Positions 1 to 28,843 of a DNA stretch of 29,750 nt are shown one piece after another (the stretch's first letter is position 1; each line of letters starts with the position of its first letter). The DNA is from a virus. The DNA lies in the IMG/VR virus record IMGVR_UViG_3300044655_000282, positions 1 to 29,750 of that record. One strand, written 5' to 3'. Position numbers and translations under genes: made by a program. The notes beneath the pieces are model-generated. The model worked only from the letters and a program-made list of their open reading frames with translations, did no database searches and had not been told where the DNA came from.

Positions 1-3000
1 CATCCTCCGCTTGATAAGCGTTCTCTAACCCAATCTTTGTACTGATTCCTTTTGTCATCAAGTACTGACCAATTCTTCCGAGCCTACCTTTTGATTTCTT
101 ATTGGATAATCTCCTCTCAAGGTACTTATCAAGGTTTGCGTCCTTGAACATATCTCTAATCTCATTGATGCCTGCGCCCTGACGCATAATACCTGCCTCG
201 ATGTACTCGTCAATTCTTTTCTGAATGTCAGCATCGCTCATCACCTTTAAGTCATCCTTGACAACTTTAAATGCATCGTATAGCTTGGTGATATTGTGGC
301 CATTTACCATTACAAAACCAAGGTTAGACACAACGTTTTTAGCGTGAGTCGCAAGTGATGCAATTGTTTTAAGCCACTTGACCAATCCCATTGCACCATA
401 GAAAAGCTTCATTGCTTTGTTGGTCTCTTTCTCTCCAAACTCTTGGTTAAATGCCTGAACAATTTCAGGAGTGGTATATAAGCCATTCAATGGCGCCATT
501 ACCTTACTGCCTTCTGCTGATATCTGAGCATTGAAACCTGTTGGTCTTGCAGCATCATTCTTCTCAAAGAAGAACTTACCCAATCCTGCTTTTTTGATAT
601 CAGTCAAGAACTTGTGTCTTGCACCCAAATGAATTAGGTTGTTGACAGTTCTTGCGTAGTTCATGGCAGGGTCTGAATATTCACCCATAAGCATTCTAAT
701 TTGCTCAGGAATATCTTCCCTTTCCTTAAGTGTAGATAAGTCCTTAGATCCAAGCTTTTGCCCACTAACTAATGATGTGACTTCAGTCTTAGTGAAGATA
801 TCGTCAATAGCGTTGTCGACTAGAATGTCAAGCGCTTCATCAAGGGTTATGTTCTTTTGAGCGGCCTCGTCCATAGCCATTGCTATCATGCCCTCTTGTG
901 ATCTCAAGAAGTTCTTTGCTTGGACTATTGTCTCCTTGGCTACATCATCTCTCCAATTCTTATTGTCATAGATTTCATATGACCTTGTAAGGTATGTCCC
1001 GATATTGCCACTTACTATATCAGCCATCTCTCCTTCAACAGCACCATTGTTAATGAGCATTTGAGATAGTGTGTCAATTTGGTTACGCATTTCATTTGCA
1101 ACAGCAGCAAACTTCCTAGGTAACTTCACAGTTGTGTCTCCTCTCAAGAACTTATCGAATGAATCTAGAAGTAGGTCTTTGTCGCCATTAAAGTCTTCAA
1201 ACATTTTTCCGAACTTTCTAGCTGTCTTCACGGCTCTGTTCGTTTCTTTTGAAATCTCACCTTCCATTTTTTCTTTCAGAGAGAAACCAATCTTAGGCAA
1301 CAATCCTTTTGACTTGAGATACTGCTCCTTAAACTTCTTAGCGCGTTCGTATAGTTTGGTTGTAACACCTGTCTTTCCTGAGCGAACAAACACACCTTCT
1401 TCCTTGGCGTAGTATTTCGCCAATGCGTTTGACGCCTCTTTAGCGCTGAATCCGGCAGCTTTGGCTTCGTCTCTAATTTCCTGATCCGTTTTGCCCTGTT
1501 CCTTACCTTCCTTCACAAGACGGTCTACGCTGTTCTTCTGCTTTCTTGCGGCAAACTGACTTTGTTGTCTTTCTTTATATTGTTTCTCTAATTCCTCATT
1601 CCCATCAAAACTTGCTTTACCTCTAGCAACAGGTTTTAATTTACCTAAGTCTTTTATTTTATTATTAAACCAAACACCACCACCTATTGATTCAAGATCT
1701 CCTAAATTTTTTACATTTGAATTAGTAAAATAAGCGTTTCCTCCTATTTCCTTTAATTTCCCTAAATTCTCTATTTTAGTATCTCGAAAATCTACAACGC
1801 CTTCAACTAATTTAAGATTACCCAAATCTTCTAAATTTGAATCTGTAAAAATCGCACCTCCTTTTATTTTCTCTAAATTACCTAAGTCTGTTATTGAAGA
1901 GTCAGAAATATTAAGACTACCACCCATACTACTTAAGTATCCAACTGATTCAAGTTTACCTAAACTTTTTAAATTTTTATTGCCAGCTACTGAGAAACTT
2001 TTACCTACTTCTGTAAGATTACCTAGATTTTCTATTGAAGATTCAAAACCAATGAAGACGGAACCTTCAACTTTTTTAAGATTACTTAATGTTTTTATTT
2101 TATTATTCTTTCCTTCTGCAATGAAATCACCACCTACAAATTCTAAATCTCCTAAATCTTCAACTTCTGAAAATTCAAGATCAAGATTCCCACCAACTTT
2201 TTTAAGATTACCTAAAGTTGTAACTCTAGAATCTTGAAAGTTAGCATCTCCACCTACTTCTGTAAGATTACCTAAGTCTGCAACTCTTGAATCTCTTAAC
2301 CAAATAGATCTACCTACAAACTCTAAGTTCCCTAATGAATATAAATTAGCTCTTCTAAAATCTGCAACTTCTCCAATTCTTTTTAAGTTACCTAAATCTA
2401 AAACTTTTGAATCTCTAAATGTAGCTCTTCCTCCAATTTCTTTTAAGCTTCCTAAATTTTTAATATTGGATTCTGTAAATCTTACACCACCTCCAATTGA
2501 TTCAATACTTTTTATTTCTTTTACTGATGAATCAGTGCCAAATTCAACACTACCTGAAATTACTTTTACTTTTCCTCCATCAAAATTATCGTAAGCATTA
2601 AGATTACCAATTATAACTTGAACATTTTTTGATTGTTCATTAGATGTAAATTCAAAGGTTGTATTTGGAGCAATTAACAATAAAGTATCATCATTAATCT
2701 CCGAATATTTCTTAGCAATACCAAATGAGAATTTTGCATCTTGAAATTTATCCTGTAGTGTTTGAACAAGACCATTCTCTCCATAGTCAACTGAGAATTC
2801 ATCCTTGTCTTTAATGATATCAATATACTCCATGACATCGTCCATATTAAGAACTTTATTGTCAATCTTATCAGTAAGCTCTTTTACCTTGGTATTGTAA
2901 GCAATTGAGTTCAACCACTTCTTACCGCTATCATTAGGTATCTTCTCTTTTAAAAATTTATCAGCAACCGGTAGCATATCAGCCTCAAGATCTTGCTTAG

Positions 3001-6000
3001 AAGAAGCATTACCTCTGACCTCACCAACCTCATCGCCTTTCATTCTTACAGCAATTCTCGGATCAAATTCGCCCTTCTGATTCTCTGTAACATATACGTA
3101 AAAGTCACCATCCCTCAATTGTCCTAGAGCATTTGTTTTGGTACACCAATAGGTGTTCTGAACCAATTGTGATAACTTATTAGCATTATCTTGAAGTTCT
3201 TGATCACTACTAATATTTTTTCCTCCGTCAAATTTAATCCACTTGCCATCTTTCGTGGATGAGAACGCAGCTGACTCGACAATGCTTGCTGAGTTATCAG
3301 CTTGAATTTTCACATAGTCTTTAAGCAACTCATTGCTATCGCTCATATAAAGCTCAGCTAATGTTCCTGCATCAAATGGAGTAAAGTTTCTTATAGTCTT
3401 TGCGGTTCTCTTTTGGTATCGATCTGACTTAAGGTCATAGTTGTTTGTCAACACAGCATCAAGAATTAAATACTTAAATGCAGGTGTATAATCAGACTGA
3501 CCTAAGTAGCTTTCCCATTGGCTAACTGTTTCCAACTGAGCTCTTCTGTACTCATCAATAACACTGTTTCTCTCAGGGCTAGGTTTAAATGCTCTTTTTG
3601 CGCGCTCAATCTGATCGTTAGAGTAGCCTTGATCAACCATAGTATCAATCTCATTTTGGATTGCTTGGTCAATTGCAGGACTATCCTCTCTAAAGATATA
3701 GTCTTTGGTATTCTTTACAAGACTATCAAACTCTTTTTTTATTGTATCAAGGATTGATTTCTTGTCAAACTTAGTCCCCTGAAGACCAATCTGCTTGATA
3801 GCCTGTGCTTCATATTTATTCTCAACGCCCGCTCTCGCATACTTAACAGCCTCTTGGTCCGTCAAGTTGATAAGACCTTTCTGCTTTCTTGGCGCGAATT
3901 TACCACCGTCAAATATTTGTTGTTGTTTTTTAACCTCAGCAGTTTCAGATAGTAGAGTATTTCTTCTCTCCTCCTCTGTCATATCCATTCTCTTCTCAAC
4001 ATTTCGAGCTTCAACTTCACCTGACTTACGGTTGTAAAGATTATTGGCATCTAATATTCTTTTTCCATTTTTTGTTACAGTATTGTTTTGTATAAATTCT
4101 CTGTAATCTTGCTTTGCTTTTTCTAATAAAACTTCATTATCTGCAGCATTTTTTAATCTTTTTACTCTATTGATTAAAGATTTTTCTCTATTAAAAAAAT
4201 CATCAACCATTTTTTGCAAATTAGTTCCGCTATCAAAACCTTCAATCTCTTGAATAGCATGCTGAACTTCATGTAAAAGTGTGGATGTAAAAACAAATGG
4301 GTTTTTTCCTACATTTATTTCAATAGTTTTTGTCTTGTGATTATAGCTACCTTCGCCTTCTTTCCCTTTAGAAAATTTAATATTTATATCCCCTAATTCA
4401 GGATACATTTCAATTAATTCTTTAGGAAGTACATCTTTTGCAGAAGCATCAGCTGATTGTTTTTGTGGTATTTTTTTTAGGTAGTCCATAGCATTATATG
4501 CAAGACTTCTAAATTGTCTTATATTATCTACAGTCTCAAATCTCCACTTACCATCAGACCCAAGCTCCCAACCGGTAGCAACTCTAATTTCAAGTGGTGA
4601 CTTCCCATCGTCAGTCATATTCTTAGCCATGACAAGGTTACTCATTCTTCGAGTACCGCTCTCCATGGCGTCAAGTCTTTCAGCGCCTTTCTCTCCGATG
4701 ATTTGTTTTCTTGTCCCTGATACTGCTCCGTCTTTTTGTTTGCCTACTTCTTTCTTAGAAATCACCTCACCTGCCTCAACTTTTGCTGATAAGACATTCA
4801 TGAATTGAATGACCTCTCCGCTTGTCATTGGTTTAATACCAACAAGCTTAGCCATTCTTTCTAAGAAGCGTACAATGATATTTTTAGTAGCCGGTGGTAG
4901 CCTCTTGTAGTTATCAGATAGTATAGCAAACAACTCAGAGAGTTTCTCTTCGTTTTGGATGTTAGCCTCATATTCGCTCTCAAAGTCCTCTAAGAACGAA
5001 ATTATTTCAGCGCCACCATCAGCTTGCTTCAATGACTTGATAACAGCCTTAATCATTGACCTTGTCAATCTACTTGCCTCAGCATCTGACGCTACCTTTG
5101 ATAGGATTAACGCATGGAACACCTCATGTGCAACTGTTCGGCTATTCGCATTCTTTAAGTTGATGTGAATTGTCTTTGTATTGTGGTCATAGATACCACC
5201 TTCAGATTCACGACCATCAAGATTTTTGGTGGCCTCAACAAAAGCTTCAGGTGTGCTATGCACAACAAACTTAACTTTAGGCAATACCTTTGAGATTGCC
5301 TTAGCAGCTTTGGTTATTTGAGCAGCAACTTTATTGCTCTTCTTGTCCGATAGGTTTACCTCACTAAAGTCTTCAGCGGTCAATATATTATTGAGCTGTT
5401 CAACTTCATTTATTGTCTCTTGAGCAACAGGAACTTCAGTCACCTCAATGTCGCCTATTGTTGCCTCAGTAGCCACAGGCTCAGAAACAGGTGTTACTTC
5501 CCCGGTTACTTCCCCGGTTACTTCCTCAGTTACTTCCTCAGCGACAGGTGCTGCCTCTTTTATATATTGTTTTTCTACCTCTTGGTATACAGTGTCAAAC
5601 TCAGCTTGCTCAACGACACCAAGTTTGTTCTCCCTATCTCTAATAGCAAAGTCAAGTGCTTGATCACCGGTAAGCTTAGCTGTGTTTCCTAAACGGTCAT
5701 TGACAGTTACTGATACCAACGCATCATTTTCATCAAACTCAAACCCATCTTCGGCAATCTCCATAGATGGCGTGTCAAGTACGATTACTTCCCCGTTTGG
5801 CATCGGAGCCTCAACCCTTCCGTTCTTGTCTTGTAGCGTTACTTCTTGGCCGTTAACGGTTGCTTTGACGCCATTAAAGTACTTTTCAGCCCTGATTTTC
5901 CTGACCGCTTCAGAAGTTTTTCTAGTAGCTGTAGCTGTGCCGGCTTTGGTAGTTTCGACAGTTTCAGTCTTTGTTCTAAATTCATAATTATCTAGTTTAT

Positions 6001-8836
6001 CTGCAATGTTTAATAACTTATCAGATATAGCTGCCTTTGTCTCAGGACTATACTTGTCTGACTTTTCTAACTGCTCAACCTCATTAAAGATTGTGGTGAT
6101 GGCATTGTCGATATCATTGTCATTAATGAATTCAGCATTGGCCATCTTGTCCATTATTGGACTTACTACAGAACCAATGCGTGCCTCTGCACCCATGTCA
6201 GCAATATACTGATCTACTTCTTCTTGACCTTTTTGGGCAGCTTCTTTAAGTTCTGTCCCGGGTGTTCCTCCCTCCACTTCTTCGCCAACTCCGGTTGTTG
6301 GCTGTACAGGAACCTCATCTGTGCTTTGCTCTTGAACGGCATAACTTAATCCTTTTAATTGTGTTTCAATCTCGGCTATACGATCTTTTTGTTTAGCAAC
6401 GAGAGCGGGGTCTTTCCCTTCTATTTCTTTTTGTAATTGATTCTTTTCTCTCAACAATCCAAACGCTTCACGTTGTGATGATAGTGAGAAAGAAGAAGGT
6501 ATTTGTCTTAATGCAGGATATGATTCATTAATAGATTTTATTTGCTCATCTGCCTCTTCTCTTGTTAATTTATTATCCTCTACCTTTTTATTTATTGAAG
6601 ATATAGCTCCTTCACGGGCGTCATCATTCAATATAATATCTCGATATACAGCAAATTTATTATTTGAAATTTTATTTGTTATAGGTTCTACTATACCAAC
6701 GGAAATGCCCGAACCCATTCCTCCCGCCACAGCTCCAACAAGAAATGCATTACCTGATTCTTTTAATAACTGTCCTATACCTTCAGTAGTTGATAAGTCA
6801 GCAGCATCTTTAAAGAATTTATTTTCTACAATTTGATTATATATTTCTTTAGAAACAGTTCCACCGCCTTCTTCTTTTGCAGTTTCTAATTGGTTTGATT
6901 GTATAATTCTATTGGCTACATCCTTTTCTATTCCTTCAAAAATTTGCTGAGTGAACTCGGTACCACCTTCAACTATACCTGCGCCTGTAATTTTAAGCAT
7001 TCCATTAGCTACGCTCGCCGCAACACTCTTGTCAATTGCACTTTTTATTTCTAATAAAGAAGCATTTTTTGGAAGAGAACTAAACGTCTTAGCCATGATA
7101 TACTCAGAAAACATTCCAAGCGTTTTGTTTTTTGCAGCACCTGCAGCAACTTTAGCTCCTAACTTTTCAAGAGCTCCAATGACTAATCCATAAGGGACTG
7201 ACATTATTTTCTTTTCATTTTCGCTTAATGCATCAAATTGAGGACCTCTCATTTGGTCTTCAAGTGCATTGTATGACATTGCAAAAAATCCTGCATTTGT
7301 TCCTGCTGTAGCAATACCTCCTCCTACAGCCCCTAGACTTTCTCCTAATGCATAAGCAGCTTGCTCTATAATTCCTCTATCAGCAGACTTCGCATATTCT
7401 TCAGTAGTTCCAAGACCAAATGCATCAGGTACACTTCTTAAAACTTGATTTGCTTTATTTTTTACTGATTTCTGAATTTCATTTTTTATTTGGTCATCAC
7501 TGAATCCCAACCTTTTTAGTCTTTCATATTCTCCAGGTGTAATTGCATCTGCAAGAGTTTTAGCATCTGATACTGCAGATACTCCTGAAATACCAAAATC
7601 AATCATTGCCTGAGATACATCTGTCAATCCTTCTCCAATACCTCTAAGAACAAGGCCCGTAAGGCTACCTTGTTTCTCTCTTTCAGCAGCCGTAATTACA
7701 TTGGCTTTTTCTAAGTTATTTGTAAGCTTATCAATCTTTTCAGCTTTACCAATGACACTTGACATAATGTCTCTTCTTTGGGTCAAAGACTTACGTTCAT
7801 TCTCAAGCGCTGCTGATCTTGAATCAAAATCAGACTTAGACATTTTGCCTCCTTTTACATCCTGATTGAATTTAACAACTTTTTGCTCGTATGATTTTAA
7901 ATCAGAGTCATAAGTGTCAGCATTAGCTCTAGCCATTTCTCCATTGAGAAGCTGTCTCTCTCTTTCAAAATACTTTTCTACATCCATGCCTTCTAGCAGT
8001 GATGCTTTAAATTTATTTGGATTAGAGCCAACTAATTCAACTAAGTCTTCTACGCTTTGTGCATTTTCAAATTGTTCTCTCTCTGATTTTTTTACTAGAT
8101 TGTTAGAAATAAAACTTTTTAATTGCTTGTCAGCATTAGGACCTGATAAATCAATTGTTTGTTCGTTTAGAATGGTATCACTAATACCATCTTTTATTCT
8201 TGATGTGACTGTTAGTTGCCAACCTAATTTTTTAAATTCTAAATTTGTTCCTTCAAATTGTTTATTTAAAATATTGGCAGTTGTCTCCTCATCTAAATCT
8301 TTAAGTTTATTTGCAGATGGTATTTTTTCAATAGAAGAATAAGCCTCAAATTCTTTTTTTCCAAAGTCTTCAGCCATCATTTGCATGGCCTCTTTGTCAC
8401 TTAATGTGTCAAATTTAACACTTGGCTTTGTTTCTTTAGGCTGCTCAAATGTACTTTCAACCTTTTGACTTGTTGCCTTAGGTTTTTTCTGAATGTTCTG
8501 AACCTGATCTAAATAGTCTTCAGTTCGAACCTTCTTTTGAGAAATAGGCTCTTCAGTAACGCCTTCAAATCTCCTTTTGGAAGAAGAAGCCGAAGTAGGT
8601 TTTTCCAAATTGGAAGCCGATGCGGTAAATTCTTTTTTTTTTAATGGTTCTTGTTGACCTGAGTATTTAGTTAAAAACTCATCCTTGCTTTTAGTATAAA
8701 GGCCATCTCTAGATACAACACCATATACCTTATCCTGATAAGCTTGATCTTGCCATTTTACTTTAAACTCTTCAAAAGATTTAGTATAGTACCCATCTCT
8801 TTTGAGTACGTCATAAAGTTTTTGTAAATCATTCAT
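1..8836 (-). CDS. Giant multidomain (polyvalent) virion protein, N-terminal 2945 residues; runs off the left edge
   Basis: The reading frame is open from an ATG at 8836-8834 to the left edge, so the C-terminus is not in the window. I followed the frame through 901-4300 without a stop and confirmed it at many other points. Domains in order: two YTKS repeats (residues 7-60); a charged, helical stretch to about 380; an Ala/Gly-rich hydrophobic region (about 390-710); a long acidic linker with EVTE/EVTG repeats (about 1100-1120); zincin 1 with HEVFH at 1237-1241 and a possible third ligand in NEEKLSE near 1294; zincin 2 with HEVQH at 1522-1526 and GEVEARN at 1606-1612; a WCT domain (W1897); LGNL repeats (2086-2405); and a C-terminal region with YLTRSYEIYD near 2618. 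Position after the internal-protein genes suggests a protein packaged in the head and ejected into the host, which is inference. HEVQH followed by GEVEAR is known from phage polyvalent proteins. I saw no RNA-polymerase DxDxD motif in the part I read closely. Coding is sure; the role is uncertain. Confidence 0.93.
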   Translation of the reverse strand, partial: MNDLQKLYDVLKRDGYYTKSFEEFKVKWQDQAYQDKVYGVVSRDGLYTKSKDEFLTKYSGQQEPLKKKEFTASASNLEKPTSASSSKRRFEGVTEEPISQKKVRTEDYLDQVQNIQKKPKATSQKVESTFEQPKETKPSVKFDTLSDKEAMQMMAEDFGKKEFEAYSSIEKIPSANKLKDLDEETTANILNKQFEGTNLEFKKLGWQLTVTSRIKDGISDTILNEQTIDLSGPNADKQLKSFISNNLVKKSEREQFENAQSVEDLVELVGSNPNKFKASLLEGMDVEKYFERERQLLNGEMARANADTYDSDLKSYEQKVVKFNQDVKGGKMSKSDFDSRSAALENERKSLTQRRDIMSSVIGKAEKIDKLTNNLEKANVITAAEREKQGSLTGLVLRGIGEGLTDVSQAMIDFGISGVSAVSDAKTLADAITPGEYERLKRLGFSDDQIKNEIQKSVKNKANQVLRSVPDAFGLGTTEEYAKSADRGIIEQAAYALGESLGAVGGGIATAGTNAGFFAMSYNALEDQMRGPQFDALSENEKKIMSVPYGLVIGALEKLGAKVAAGAAKNKTLGMFSEYIMAKTFSSLPKNASLLEIKSAIDKSVAASVANGMLKITGAGIVEGGTEFTQQIFEGIEKDVANRIIQSNQLETAKEEGGGTVSKEIYNQIVENKFFKDAADLSTTEGIGQLLKESGNAFLVGAVAGGMGSGISVGIVEPITNKISNNKFAVYRDIILNDDAREGAISSINKKVEDNKLTREEADEQIKSINESYPALRQIPSSFSLSSQREAFGLLREKNQLQKEIEGKDPALVAKQKDRIAEIETQLKGLSYAVQEQSTDEVPVQPTTGVGEEVEGGTPGTELKEAAQKGQEEVDQYIADMGAEARIGSVVSPIMDKMANAEFINDNDIDNAITTIFNEVEQLEKSDKYSPETKAAISDKLLNIADKLDNYEFRTKTETVETTKAGTATATRKTSEAVRKIRAEKYFNGVKATVNGQEVTLQDKNGRVEAPMPNGEVIVLDTPSMEIAEDGFEFDENDALVSVTVNDRLGNTAKLTGDQALDFAIRDRENKLGVVEQAEFDTVYQEVEKQYIKEAAPVAEEVTEEVTGEVTGEVTPVSEPVATEATIGDIEVTEVPVAQETINEVEQLNNILTAEDFSEVNLSDKKSNKVAAQITKAAKAISKVLPKVKFVVHSTPEAFVEATKNLDGRESEGGIYDHNTKTIHINLKNANSRTVAHEVFHALILSKVASDAEASRLTRSMIKAVIKSLKQADGGAEIISFLEDFESEYEANIQNEEKLSELFAILSDNYKRLPPATKNIIVRFLERMAKLVGIKPMTSGEVIQFMNVLSAKVEAGEVISKKEVGKQKDGAVSGTRKQIIGEKGAERLDAMESGTRRMSNLVMAKNMTDDGKSPLEIRVATGWELGSDGKWRFETVDNIRQFRSLAYNAMDYLKKIPQKQSADASAKDVLPKELIEMYPELGDINIKFSKGKEGEGSYNHKTKTIEINVGKNPFVFTSTLLHEVQHAIQEIEGFDSGTNLQKMVDDFFNREKSLINRVKRLKNAADNEVLLEKAKQDYREFIQNNTVTKNGKRILDANNLYNRKSGEVEARNVEKRMDMTEEERRNTLLSETAEVKKQQQIFDGGKFAPRKQKGLINLTDQEAVKYARAGVENKYEAQAIKQIGLQGTKFDKKSILDTIKKEFDSLVKNTKDYIFREDSPAIDQAIQNEIDTMVDQGYSNDQIERAKRAFKPSPERNSVIDEYRRAQLETVSQWESYLGQSDYTPAFKYLILDAVLTNNYDLKSDRYQKRTAKTIRNFTPFDAGTLAELYMSDSNELLKDYVKIQADNSASIVESAAFSSTKDGKWIKFDGGKNISSDQELQDNANKLSQLVQNTYWCTKTNALGQLRDGDFYVYVTENQKGEFDPRIAVRMKGDEVGEVRGNASSKQDLEADMLPVADKFLKEKIPNDSGKKWLNSIAYNTKVKELTDKIDNKVLNMDDVMEYIDIIKDKDEFSVDYGENGLVQTLQDKFQDAKFSFGIAKKYSEINDDTLLLIAPNTTFEFTSNEQSKNVQVIIGNLNAYDNFDGGKVKVISGSVEFGTDSSVKEIKSIESIGGGVRFTESNIKNLGSLKEIGGRATFRDSKVLDLGNLKRIGEVADFRRANLYSLGNLEFVGRSIWLRDSRVADLGNLTEVGGDANFQDSRVTTLGNLKKVGGNLDLEFSEVEDLGDLEFVGGDFIAEGKNNKIKTLSNLKKVEGSVFIGFESSIENLGNLTEVGKSFSVAGNKNLKSLGKLESVGYLSSMGGSLNISDSSITDLGNLEKIKGGAIFTDSNLEDLGNLKLVEGVVDFRDTKIENLGKLKEIGGNAYFTNSNVKNLGDLESIGGGVWFNNKIKDLGKLKPVARGKASFDGNEELEKQYKERQQSQFAARKQKNSVDRLVKEGKEQGKTDQEIRDEAKAAGFSAKEASNALAKYYAKEEGVFVRSGKTGVTTKLYERAKKFKEQYLKSKGLLPKIGFSLKEKMEGEISKETNRAVKTARKFGKMFEDFNGDKDLLLDSFDKFLRGDTTVKLPRKFAAVANEMRNQIDTLSQMLINNGAVEGEMADIVSGNIGTYLTRSYEIYDNKNWRDDVAKETIVQAKNFLRSQEGMIAMAMDEAAQKNITLDEALDILVDNAIDDIFTKTEVTSLVSGQKLGSKDLSTLKEREDIPEQIRMLMGEYSDPAMNYARTVNNLIHLGARHKFLTDIKKAGLGKFFFEKNDAARPTGFNAQISAEGSKVMAPLNGLYTTPEIVQAFNQEFGEKETNKAMKLFYGAMGLVKWLKTIASLATHAKNVVSNLGFVMVNGHNITKLYDAFKVVKDDLKVMSDADIQKRIDEYIEAGIMRQGAGINEIRDMFKDANLDKYLERRLSNKKSKGRLGRIGQYLMTKGISTKIGLENAYQAED
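1620..2600 (-). repeat. About 16 tandem leucine-rich LGNLxxVGG repeats inside the giant protein
   Basis: In frame, residues about 2086-2405 form consecutive units of 20 residues (60 bases), a few stretched to 22. The consensus is LGNLKxVGGxxxFxDSxV, for example ADLGNLTEVGGDANFQDSRV and KNLGSLKEIGGRATFRDSKV. The DNA copies have diverged widely, so this is an old protein repeat and not a recent DNA amplification. The regular Leu, Gly and Phe positions suggest a solenoid of leucine-rich or beta-helix type, likely a binding surface. It follows directly after the WCT domain. The stretch is visibly richer in A+T than the sequence on either side. Confidence 0.85.
5493..5540 (-). repeat. 12-base tandem repeat, four copies, in an acidic linker of the giant protein
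   Basis: Four consecutive 12-base units are present on the plus strand: GTTACTTCCCCG twice, then GTTACTTCCTCA twice. On the coding strand they give EVTE/EVTG units within a Val/Thr/Glu-rich linker just before zincin 1. Copies within each pair are identical, so recent slippage duplication is likely. Gain or loss of a unit keeps the frame and only changes linker length. Confidence 0.8.
8657..8818 (-). repeat. Two tandem RDGxYTKSxxEF motifs at the N-terminus of the giant protein
   Basis: Residues 7-35 (containing LKRDGYYTKSFEEFKVKW) and 36-60 (containing VSRDGLYTKSKDEFLTKY) align with spacing of about 29 residues and share a (L/V)Y-x-V-x-x-RDG-x-YTKS-x-x-EF pattern. From memory, similar short motifs begin other very large proteins of Bacteroidota phages, where they might be a packaging or anchoring tag. 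That role is inference. Confidence 0.7.
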
Positions 8837-8860: not shown

Positions 8861-10471
8861 CTAATCATCTAGTTCTCCTTCTTTCTTAGGCTTAGGCTTA
8901 GGCTTAGGCTTAGTTTTTGATGAAGATTGACCCGTTCTTTTTTCTCTTTCCTCATCAGTGTATGTTGAAGAGCTATATAGCTTATCTTGGTCGAATGTTG
9001 AGTCTGACGGTAAATAAGATCCAAACAATGTAAATCCATGGATATCCCTAAATTGATCTTTACCTTGCTTATAAACTAATTGAGCTTCTTTTGGATCAAT
9101 ACCTGCTAAGTATGAAGCTAAATCATCAGCATTCGTAACAGGCTTGAATTTTTCTTTCTGATCTCCTTCATAATTGATATTTCCTCCTGATGCTACATAC
9201 ATTACATTCTTGCCTCCCTTGTTGTCAAAATAGAAGCTGTAGTCTGTAGTGTTCAATGCACCTAAGTTGCCCGTTCTCATGGCATTGTTTGCCTTCTCGT
9301 AATAAGTAACTTGATCTTTATCATCATCACCGCCGCCGCCACCGCTTCCTTTTCCTCCATAATTTGGAGCATATTGAATTGATGGCTCTGCCTGTAGGTC
9401 AACCTTAGTTTTTTGGTCTAGGCTATTACGTGTTTGAGTACGCAAGAAATCAGCAGCAACTTTATTCTGCTCCTCAGTGAATTCAGGACGTGGCATACCT
9501 GAGCCATCGTCTTTCATATAGATATACTTCGAGCTGCTCTTAGCCAACTCAGGGTCAAATGTAAACTCATAGAATTCATTCGTGCCCGGTACCTTGTTAA
9601 CTGCGTCAGTTAATAAACCAAGCTGATTGAATGGGTTAGATAACTCAGACTCAATCATATTGTTTTCCCAATCCATATATGTGGTGACCACCTGCTTCTC
9701 TTCGTCAGTCAAGCGCTCTCTTTTTGTCGGGTCAGTAAACTCCTCAATTTTAAGCATTCTATATGCACCCTTAAGCTTGGATACATTAGTAAGCACAACC
9801 TCACCCAAAGATGTAACTTGCTTATCTACCGCTTCTTGGTATTGATATTTGTCAAGCTTTACATTCATGCGATTGCGAAGCTGATTGACGGTAACGTAGT
9901 TGTCAGGATTGTCATCCATAACCATAACCTCTTTGCCATCAGCACCCTTAACTCTTTTCATCTGAGCAATGCTCACCTGACCATTAGTAGGGTTAATGTA
10001 TGCCTTGGTATTTGTAAAGTTACTGAGGCCCTCAGCTTGCTTTGTAAGCCAAATCTCAAACTCTTGAGACTTATCGCCATTGTATCGCTCAACAGCCTCT
10101 TTGTATTTAGTTTGATACTCTTTTGATACCGCAAACAATTGGTTTGTGCTATCATTCAAGTTTTGACGCTGAACAGTATAATCTCTTAAATCCATTCGAC
10201 CACTCTTAAGTAATCTGTCTTGTATCAACCTTTGTTGAGCAGCATCATTGGCAAAGTTTAACGTCCACTCATTAGCACTTTGAAAGTCACCTTGTGGCGC
10301 ATTTGATAATACATCACCAAATTGGCGAGATGCCTCATCAATGGCAGCCTTCTTTTCTTCACGTAATGTTGCCTCAGTTGACAACATTTCAGTGACGTTC
10401 TTACCTACCTCAGCCCAATTTATTTGTGACTCAGCGCTTCTCTCCGCATATTTGTAAAATGTCTTAGCCAT
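8861..10471 (-). CDS. Putative internal (ejected) virion protein, 536 residues
   Basis: The protein starts MAKTFYKYAERSAESQ and is largely hydrophilic and helical. A glycine-rich, acidic linker lies near residue 375 (GGKGSGGGGGDDDKD). The C-terminus is a Lys-Pro tail (KPKPKPKPKK) followed by an acidic end. There is no signal peptide or membrane segment, and I recognise no enzyme motif. It lies three bases after the 276-residue gene and 24 bases before the giant gene, so it belongs to the late virion block, in the place where T7-like and crAss-like phages encode proteins stored in the head and ejected with the DNA. My recollection is that this N-terminus is conserved in Bacteroidota podoviruses. 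The coding call is firm; the cargo role is inferred from position and composition. Confidence 0.9.
   Translation of the reverse strand: MAKTFYKYAERSAESQINWAEVGKNVTEMLSTEATLREEKKAAIDEASRQFGDVLSNAPQGDFQSANEWTLNFANDAAQQRLIQDRLLKSGRMDLRDYTVQRQNLNDSTNQLFAVSKEYQTKYKEAVERYNGDKSQEFEIWLTKQAEGLSNFTNTKAYINPTNGQVSIAQMKRVKGADGKEVMVMDDNPDNYVTVNQLRNRMNVKLDKYQYQEAVDKQVTSLGEVVLTNVSKLKGAYRMLKIEEFTDPTKRERLTDEEKQVVTTYMDWENNMIESELSNPFNQLGLLTDAVNKVPGTNEFYEFTFDPELAKSSSKYIYMKDDGSGMPRPEFTEEQNKVAADFLRTQTRNSLDQKTKVDLQAEPSIQYAPNYGGKGSGGGGGDDDKDQVTYYEKANNAMRTGNLGALNTTDYSFYFDNKGGKNVMYVASGGNINYEGDQKEKFKPVTNADDLASYLAGIDPKEAQLVYKQGKDQFRDIHGFTLFGSYLPSDSTFDQDKLYSSSTYTDEEREKRTGQSSSKTKPKPKPKPKKEGELDD
8885..8913 (-). repeat. Hexanucleotide (CTTAGG) tract coding the Lys-Pro tail
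   Basis: The plus strand carries CTTAGG four times plus a partial fifth copy. On the coding strand each unit reads Pro-Lys, giving the KPKPKPKPK tail of the 536-residue protein. Because the unit is two codons, slippage lengthens or shortens the tail without changing frame. Confidence 0.85.
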
Positions 10472-19862: not shown

Positions 19863-19892
19863 AAAAAAATAAAGGCCGCAAATAGCGGCCTT
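19863..19892 (-). terminator. Rho-independent terminator between head and tail blocks
   Basis: On the minus strand AAGGCCGC, a loop TATTT and GCGGCCTT form a perfect 8-base-pair stem, followed by TTATTTTTTT. The G+C-rich stem stands out in A+T-rich surroundings. It would stop transcripts coming from the head genes, or short transcripts started at the promoter at 19933-19963. Confidence 0.9.
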
Positions 19893-19932
19893 CATCAACA
19901 GAGAAATGAGTATTAACTCTAAAACAACATTG

Positions 19933-20730: not shown

Positions 20731-20764
20731 AATAAAAATAGAGAGGGACATTGCTGTCCCCCTC
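20731..20764 (-). terminator. Rho-independent terminator after the major capsid gene
   Basis: On the minus strand GAGGGGGACA, a loop GCAA and TGTCCCTCTC form a 10-base-pair stem with one G-T pair, followed by TATTTTTATT. It lies 14 bases past the capsid stop codon. A partial terminator here would lower expression of the next gene relative to the capsid protein. Confidence 0.85.
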
Positions 20765-20778
20765 TAAGTTTGTTATGC

Positions 20779-28057: not shown

Positions 28058-28283
28058 GTGTTACCTCCTCTAAACTAGCTTTTTCAGCTTCAATTCTATT
28101 TAATATGTCGAATGCATCAAATATAGCCAATCGTTTTGACGCGGCAGCATTCTTTAACTTATCCGCAGCCAAGTCATCTTCTGAGTCAATCTTGATGATA
28201 TCTTCTTTAGCAACTTTGATGAGCTGCTCAACAGCTTTGTATCCGGCCTCAATAATCTTATGCCTTAATTCTTTTGGGTTCAT
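28002..28283 (-). CDS. Small helical protein in the small-terminase position, 93 residues
   Basis: The protein is all-helical and charged (KAVEQLIKVAKEDIIKIDSE, then KLKNAAASKRLAIFDAFDIL), with a polar tail. It lies directly before and overlapping the large terminase. Position, size and helical content suit a small terminase subunit, but no helix-turn-helix is clear, so the role is a guess. Its start overlaps the stop of the previous gene in ATGA. The last 56 bases double as the start of the terminase and carry its Shine-Dalgarno sequence. Confidence 0.82.
   Translation of the reverse strand: MNPKELRHKIIEAGYKAVEQLIKVAKEDIIKIDSEDDLAADKLKNAAASKRLAIFDAFDILNRIEAEKASLEEVTHESQKLDTKQGFAERRAK
28063..28069 (-). 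promoter_or_regulatory. Strong Shine-Dalgarno sequence (AGGAGGT) for the terminase start
   Basis: The minus strand reads GAGGAGGTAACACATG, with AGGAGGT five bases before the ATG. It is inside the 93-residue gene, where it codes Glu-Glu-Val. I checked the other starts in this window and none has a comparable sequence, so this one decides the terminase start. Confidence 0.7.
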
Positions 28284-28843
28284 AGCTTAATTGTTATTTG
28301 ATGGTCATACATTCTGTACAGCTTCTCTTCATCTACAATAAACTCATACTCGCTGTCAGGCTTGAAGCATACCTTGTCGCCGGCTTTGATGCCCTTTGAC
28401 AATAGATACTCATTTGGATATACCATAATGGCCATTAGTGGCTCCTCCTCAATTGGCTTGTAGATAAATGACTCCTCAGGCTTTATGGGCTTGACAAAGC
28501 AATACCTGTCATAAGCCTTCCAATCTGTTCCATCATGGAACATAAAGAACTGCTCATCGTCAACAAAGAAAAGGTCTTCCTTAAAGAAGCTCTTACCGCT
28601 CTTACGGCGGCCCTTCATGTCGTTATAGAACTTGAACACGTTATGGTGAACTAGAAGTTTGTGGCCAACTTTAATTGGTCCTTTGTAGCCAATGGGTAGC
28701 TCAACAACATCAGCCTCTCTATTTGAGAACCTAAAATCTTCTTCAGAAGTATTGACAATAAAATCAATACCTCCTATTTCTTTTGTGTTGTTGTATCTTT
28801 TTCCCTCCTTTGGCTTTACTATAAAGTAAAATGGAGATTGCAT
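28280..28843 (-). CDS. GroES-like (co-chaperonin fold?) protein, 187 residues
   Basis: The C-terminal part reads GIKAGDKVCFKPDSEYEFIV, then DEEKLYRMYDHQITIKL. This follows the GroES ending pattern (GDxVxF, a loop, then a strand with a 'dEeklYrm...I' tail). An earlier stretch, VELPIGYKGPIKVGHKLLVH, has a second GroES-like GxKVGxxLLVH look. The middle contains KSGKSFFKEDLFFVDDEQFF and YDRYCFVKPI. I recall proteins like this beside terminase genes in Bacteroidota phages. A capsid-folding co-chaperonin like T4 gp31 is possible, but residues of a mobile loop are not evident. It overlaps neighbours by one base upstream (TAATG) and four downstream (ATGA), so it is translationally coupled to both. 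Confidence 0.85.
   Translation of the reverse strand: MQSPFYFIVKPKEGKRYNNTKEIGGIDFIVNTSEEDFRFSNREADVVELPIGYKGPIKVGHKLLVHHNVFKFYNDMKGRRKSGKSFFKEDLFFVDDEQFFMFHDGTDWKAYDRYCFVKPIKPEESFIYKPIEEEPLMAIMVYPNEYLLSKGIKAGDKVCFKPDSEYEFIVDEEKLYRMYDHQITIKL

Follow-up and report, generated by a model that had tools for sequence, protein, structure and literature searches.

Organization of the locus

The window, by which we mean the whole stretch of DNA analysed, is one complete IMG/VR virus record, 29,750 bases long. Its genes run leftward from a terminase through a portal, virion structural proteins and a muzzle-domain protein to a giant open reading frame (ORF), the last gene of the virion block. For the terminase, identity is 76% to MW202828, an uncultured spring phage, and 45% to Flavobacterium elemoviruses; the portal matches phrog_6547, and the muzzle domain is PF25729, the muzzle C-terminal domain of crassviruses. 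As homologues of terminase, portal and muzzle occur in matching order, these comparisons place the source phage with the Elemovirus/crAss-like podophages. The virion block of MW202828 and of the elemoviruses is also closed by a gene of 3.7–3.9 thousand codons, and the position of the giant ORF, together with the annotation of the elemovirus gene as 'structural protein', is consistent with carriage in the virion. We note that a GroES-like protein (phrog_13932) is encoded close to the terminase (28280–28843) and that MW202828 has an annotated groEL plus a 10-kDa chaperonin.

The giant ORF is read on the minus strand, as are all its parts given below, from an ATG at 8836 until it leaves the window at base 2 (2..8836). 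It has 2945 codons and zero stops, in agreement with a preliminary description of at least 2945 residues. Because the window is the whole virus record, the C-terminus lies outside it and out of reach of the leftward extension suggested there. The protein of a relative, L002, runs 416 aa beyond the residue aligned to Q2945, which gives an expected full length of about 3360 aa, with some 416 aa absent from the window.

The N-terminal block (residues 1–870; 6227..8836) is common to the complete close relatives L002 (2983 aa), L003 (2413 aa) and L005 (2170 aa). Sequence comparison then defines a hypervariable, Pro/Glu/Val-rich linker (residues 871–1109; 5510..6226), which differs even among L002, L003 and L005 despite flanks that are 95–98% identical. 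Zincin 1 (residues 1110–1364; 4745..5509) is constant in the family and carries an HEVFH sequence invariant in relatives (residues 1237–1241; 5114..5128). The peptide RKQI, delimiter 1 (residues 1376–1379; 4700..4711), leads into cassette A, composed of LPD23 and zincin 2 (residues 1379–1649; 3890..4702), with HEVQH at residues 1522–1526 (4259..4273). Delimiter 2, RKQK (residues 1650–1653; 3878..3889), is followed by cassette B (residues 1654–2430; 1547..3877), which contains a WCT core (residues 1809–1969; 2930..3412) and a solenoid of LGNL repeats (residues 2085–2425; 1562..2584). Delimiter 3, again RKQK (residues 2431–2434; 1535..1546), precedes a small helical module that starts the C-terminal block (residues 2435–2472; 1421..1534), the remainder of this constant block being incomplete (residues 2473–2945; 2..1420). 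The C-terminus had been described as resembling polyvalent proteins; a protein encoded by Pseudoalteromonas phage Y3 does align with residues 2610–2907 (33%, E=1e-35), and a Pfam search of the C-terminal region gave no match.

Functionally unrelated domains, namely LPD23, two zincins, WCT and leucine-rich repeats (LRR), thus share one ORF, and both HExxH sequences, at 1237 and 1522, are in one frame as first described. A chimeric assembly was ruled out because both cassettes were found again elsewhere, WCT-LRR in L002 and five more contigs and LPD23-zincin 2 in L015, L054 and L064.

The two zincins are not equivalent

On sequence comparison, zincin 1 is a constant component, whereas zincin 2 is part of a removable cassette. 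In an alignment of 28 relatives the HExxH motif of zincin 1 and E187/E188 are invariant, and the NEE that comes after HExxH is likewise conserved. The fold check called for in the preliminary description gave an AF2 model (average pLDDT 65) with a helix, three strands, the HExxH helix and the NEE helix, which is the zincin order of elements. The best structural match was the metallopeptidase region of the N4 virion RNA polymerase (vRNAP), residues 2124–2363 (9pnt; Z 7.8, 171 aligned), and the further top matches were Certhrax, lethal factor and PPEP; all have Z <8, so that the zincin fold is supported but unproven. Foldseek alone gave no match at E <0.1, its top rows being zinc peptidases.

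Zincin 2, which belongs to a different type, has HEVQH at 1522 and GEVEAR at 1606 and travels together with LPD23 (residues 1393–1437, E=9e-11). It matches DUF6782 with E=1.4e-5 but scores 24.9 bits against a Pfam cut-off of 27, and is therefore termed zincin-like and not classed as a member of that family; a phrog_87 metalloprotease match was also found (E=0.004). The motifs HE[VIL]QH and GEVEARNV are conserved in L015, L054 and L064. Zincin 2 may be an effector directed against host proteins.

An exchangeable slot between zincin 1 and the C-terminal block

Most of residues 1–870 are common to the window protein, L002, L003 and L005, as are zincin 1 and the C-terminal block, and what lies between the latter two is a slot for zero to several swappable cassettes. 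It holds LPD23-zincin 2 and WCT-LRR in the window protein, WCT-LRR only in L002, and in L003 a module that reads as GNAT-like from its sequence, without a match in a Pfam search; in L005 it is empty and a single RKQK is retained. The DNA on both sides of the slot is 95–98% identical among L002, L003 and L005. Cassettes of relatives contain ART-PolyVal, Kinase-PolyVal, methyltransferase and LPD23 domains. The slot shows virion payload exchanged between phages as a cassette, and both edges carry RKQK, the first edge of the window protein having RKQI. In seven elemovirus isolates there was no cassette-sized change in the length of the giant gene, that of elemoD being 189 bp longer.

The WCT-LRR cassette is 91–93% identical in nucleotide sequence between the window and L002, and identity drops to 55–58% exactly where the RKQK codons lie at either end. 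Between the same two phages, identity is 66–71% for zincin 1, about 67% for the C-terminal block and about 74% for the virion genes. Residues 60–870 (within 6227–8836) are 86–91% identical at the nucleotide level and residues 1–60 show 22% amino acid identity; as the former value lies above the 74% of the virion genes, residues 60–870 may have been exchanged as well, as a second block towards the N-terminus that has an edge of its own.

The WCT domain, of about 160 aa with YWCT near residue 1896, was present as described. It is conserved in six other contigs, in each of which LGNL-type repeats follow it. In the window protein these repeats have a period of about 20 and are modelled as a solenoid (pLDDT ~90), and those of relatives are Receptor-L/EndoS-LRR-like; the repeats noted earlier are thus real, although 'about 16' becomes 14 when counted by pattern. 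No relatives of WCT-LRR were found in genome contigs (searched with narrow patterns), in plasmids or in phages (E 0.01), and its origin as a bacterial or plasmid gene was rejected on these searches. WCT was likewise rejected as a known family, having no Pfam name. Foldseek searches of BFVD gave LRR-containing or unnamed phage proteins with E down to 2.7e-8, and PcfJ-like proteins only at E >0.1, a weak lead to a relationship with the latter. Against the PDB there was no match at E<=0.001, the upper rows being mostly LRR or insulin-receptor L-domain structures. The protein had been called a 'multi-tool weapon'; since WCT-LRR is optional and missing from close relatives, this is true of the present cargo of this phage only.

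A short peptide delimits the modules

A discovery set of 67 loci was found with zincin 1, and the stretch after zincin 1 often contained RQQK, REQK, RKSK, RESK or a similar peptide followed by differing modules. In 55 nonredundant giant proteins from this set R[KEQ]QK occurs 75 times, compared with 6.7±2.7 in shuffled sequences, a count to be read with the motif having been chosen on the same data and the proteins being inter-related. The reversed motif K[REQ]QR occurs four times (4.3 expected) in the same proteins, and the highest of the looser rearrangements, RQ.K, 53 times (29 expected); other ORFs of those loci contain a single R[KEQ]QK in 126,233 aa. Seventy-two of the 75 occurrences lie after the zincin 1 HExxH and three before it, 48 are beside the start of a BLAST segment (11.4±3.1 by chance), and R.Q precedes the module of about 40 residues that starts the C-terminal block in 34 of 38 discovery proteins (1.7 expected). 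The strict four-residue motif was missing after zincin 1 from 16 of 53 discovery proteins.

A second zincin scan provided a test set of 33 proteins that have no long stretch of 80% identity in common with the discovery set or with each other and are still inter-related; a C-terminal scan for the same purpose, with narrow patterns, gave no new phage. R[KEQ]QK was found 14 times in the test set (2.9 expected), a weaker enrichment than in the discovery set, 13 times after the zincin and once before, nine of the 13 being at segment starts (2.1 expected). Of 20 C-terminal modules, 16 were preceded by R-x-Q (0.7 expected), whereas the strict four-residue motif was at the first junction in one of 31, and the fourth-residue K is not general. 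At the level of sequence, the core of the general delimiter is R-x-Q, with R-[K/Q/E]-Q-K usual in close relatives. The delimiter provides a rule for dividing giant phage proteins into functional units.

In keeping with the cutting proposed below, the modelled ends that bear the sites have pLDDT <50. Upstream of the sites, disorder-promoting residues make up 66%, compared with 56%. Such linker-like surroundings would suit peptides that act as docking or translocation signals, recognized by another factor, of virion or host, while the protein is packaged or threaded through the tail, and crassvirus cargo is thought to unfold in ejection (PMC10172136). Signals of this kind would have no need to match the resident zincin. 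Moreover, the giant proteins of Pseudomonas phages AF, F116 and 8P and of Pseudoalteromonas phage Y3, four checked that are without zincin 1, have no R[KEQ]QK, and that of MW202828, with another zincin type, has one, before its zincins, and no repeated use of such a word at module edges. We regard docking signals as an improbable explanation for the peptides.

The variant of the site follows the host protein and not the cassette. Within multi-site proteins of the discovery set the variable residue agrees in 0.78 of pairs, compared with 0.34±0.06 after shuffling; in the test set, with seven pairs, agreement was not significant. The WCT cassette, which starts with GLI[NT]L in seven proteins, is preceded by RKQK, RQQK, REQK, KSQK or KAQK, and the variant mostly agrees with the other sites of its host protein; the LPD23-zincin 2 cassette is preceded by RKQ or REQ. 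Within one gene the site codons differ (Arg AGA, CGT or AGG; Gln CAA or CAG; Lys codons as well), which indicates that the peptide, and not the DNA, is conserved.

One explanation for these data is that R-x-Q(-K) marks recombination joints only, a short repeated coding sequence that enables exchange while the protein stays uncut. The breaks between diverged phages do coincide with the motif codons, the empty slot of L005 retains a single copy, and the sites within a gene share slightly more codons than expected (147 compared with 121, of 223). However, the variation in Arg, Gln and Lys codons within a gene shows that the peptide is kept, the sites are nearly confined to the region after zincin 1, and one cassette bears differing site variants in different hosts. 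Joints alone are therefore an unlikely account, if a little less so than docking signals.

Proposed processing of the giant protein

We propose that the giant ORF encodes a polyvalent virion-cargo polyprotein in which zincin 1 cuts at R-x-Q peptides and frees exchangeable cassettes, and consider this reading probable. In the proposed layout a slot of zero to several cassettes, each bounded by a short peptide with the core R-x-Q, lies between a constant N-terminal block with constant zincin 1 on one side and a constant C-terminal block on the other. Cutting would take place after synthesis, either inside the virion or once injected, with zincin 1 the most likely cutter, and the cassettes would become separate proteins, in this phage LPD23-zincin 2 and WCT-LRR, each presumably with an effector role. 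Cassettes would arrive by phage–phage recombination and be retained if they carry, or gain, the recipient's own site. The preliminary description had the zincins possibly processing their own chain: the site pattern favours this for zincin 1, while zincin 2 appears to be swappable cargo. A more general form of the proposal is that the resident zincin and its lineage-matched R-x-Q(-K) site amount to a polyprotein code that makes any incoming effector module plug-in, to which we would give even chances. If this is true, virion payload is interchangeable and released by self-cutting. The R-x-Q motif yields cleavage predictions at the level of single residues.

Polyvalent proteins are large, multidomain and thought to be injected with the DNA, and autoprocessing by their zincins has been predicted; the idea that such phage proteins cut themselves dates back to 2017 (Iyer et al., 2017; PMC5512222). 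Their repertoire of zincins, ART, kinase, GNAT, methyltransferase and LPD domains resembles that of the window protein and the cassettes of its relatives, with LPD23 in the former and ART-PolyVal and Kinase-PolyVal in the latter. These PolyVal domains, the place of the ORF in the slot of the elemovirus 'structural' protein and the muzzle-containing virion module all fit the original suggestion of a polyvalent, co-delivered protein. The searched passages of PMC5512222 contain no delimiter peptide, slot or matching of site to host protein, and do not mention crAss. The literature searched, with few subscription journals covered, held nothing on crAss-like zincins or polyvalent-protein delimiters and named no cut sites of polyvalent proteins; slot, delimiter and host-protein matching thus appear to be undescribed for this class.

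The N4 vRNAP, gp50, is also a giant co-injected virion protein, and its metallopeptidase region is nearest to zincin 1; unlike the giant protein, it carries an RNA polymerase. We know of no exchangeable slot in gp50. It is reported to be packaged unprocessed (PMC5512222), and this counts against self-cutting, as it has the same kind of domain as zincin 1. Alternatively, the two zincins may be effectors that target host proteins, in a chain left uncut as is reported for the closest structural match of zincin 1; that zincin 2 moves as cargo is in keeping with this. Such a chain would not account for the delimiter, for its placement after zincin 1 or for the way it matches the host protein, and we consider it the least likely of the alternatives to a self-cutting polyprotein.

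Among crAss-like phages, the elemovirus giant structural protein YP_010108995 (3694 aa) also ends the virion block, and its zincin 1 is 40% identical; it has RQQK at 2079 and RMQK at 2302, and cassettes that differ from those of the window protein. A cultured elemovirus, of Flavobacterium sp. BAL314, thus has zincin 1 and two R-x-Q-type sites. In the elemovirus giant protein (L007 10654–21735) a DUF3293 lies at residues 1323–1392, N-terminal of zincin 1 and outside the slot. Crassviruses package large cargo proteins (PMC10172136). In crAss001, a crAss-like podovirus with a muzzle as here, gp45–gp50 are virion-packed cargo, described as channel-forming and RNA polymerase-related; a text search of the same paper for cleavage or a protease gave nothing.

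Other lineages carry different peptides. The giant protein of MW202828 (L008 744–12320) is annotated as 'reticulocyte binding/rhoptry protein' and has HEFGH zincins, and MFRATQ, not RxQK, precedes its C-terminal module. In F116 (L151 5382–16743) and 8P (L152 817–16254) RxQK is absent, and the FSR-type peptides LFSRSG and VFSRSG occur after a zincin; judging from the sequences, these are possibly the delimiter of another lineage. Elsewhere in the window, tandem CTTAGG hexamers at 8885–8913, near the 3' end of the gene at 8861–10471, encode a repeat of Pro-Lys when read on the minus strand and also score as a hairpin, and terminator-like hairpins with T-runs, of 12 pairs each, lie near virion genes on the minus strand at 20739–20766 and 19868–19896.
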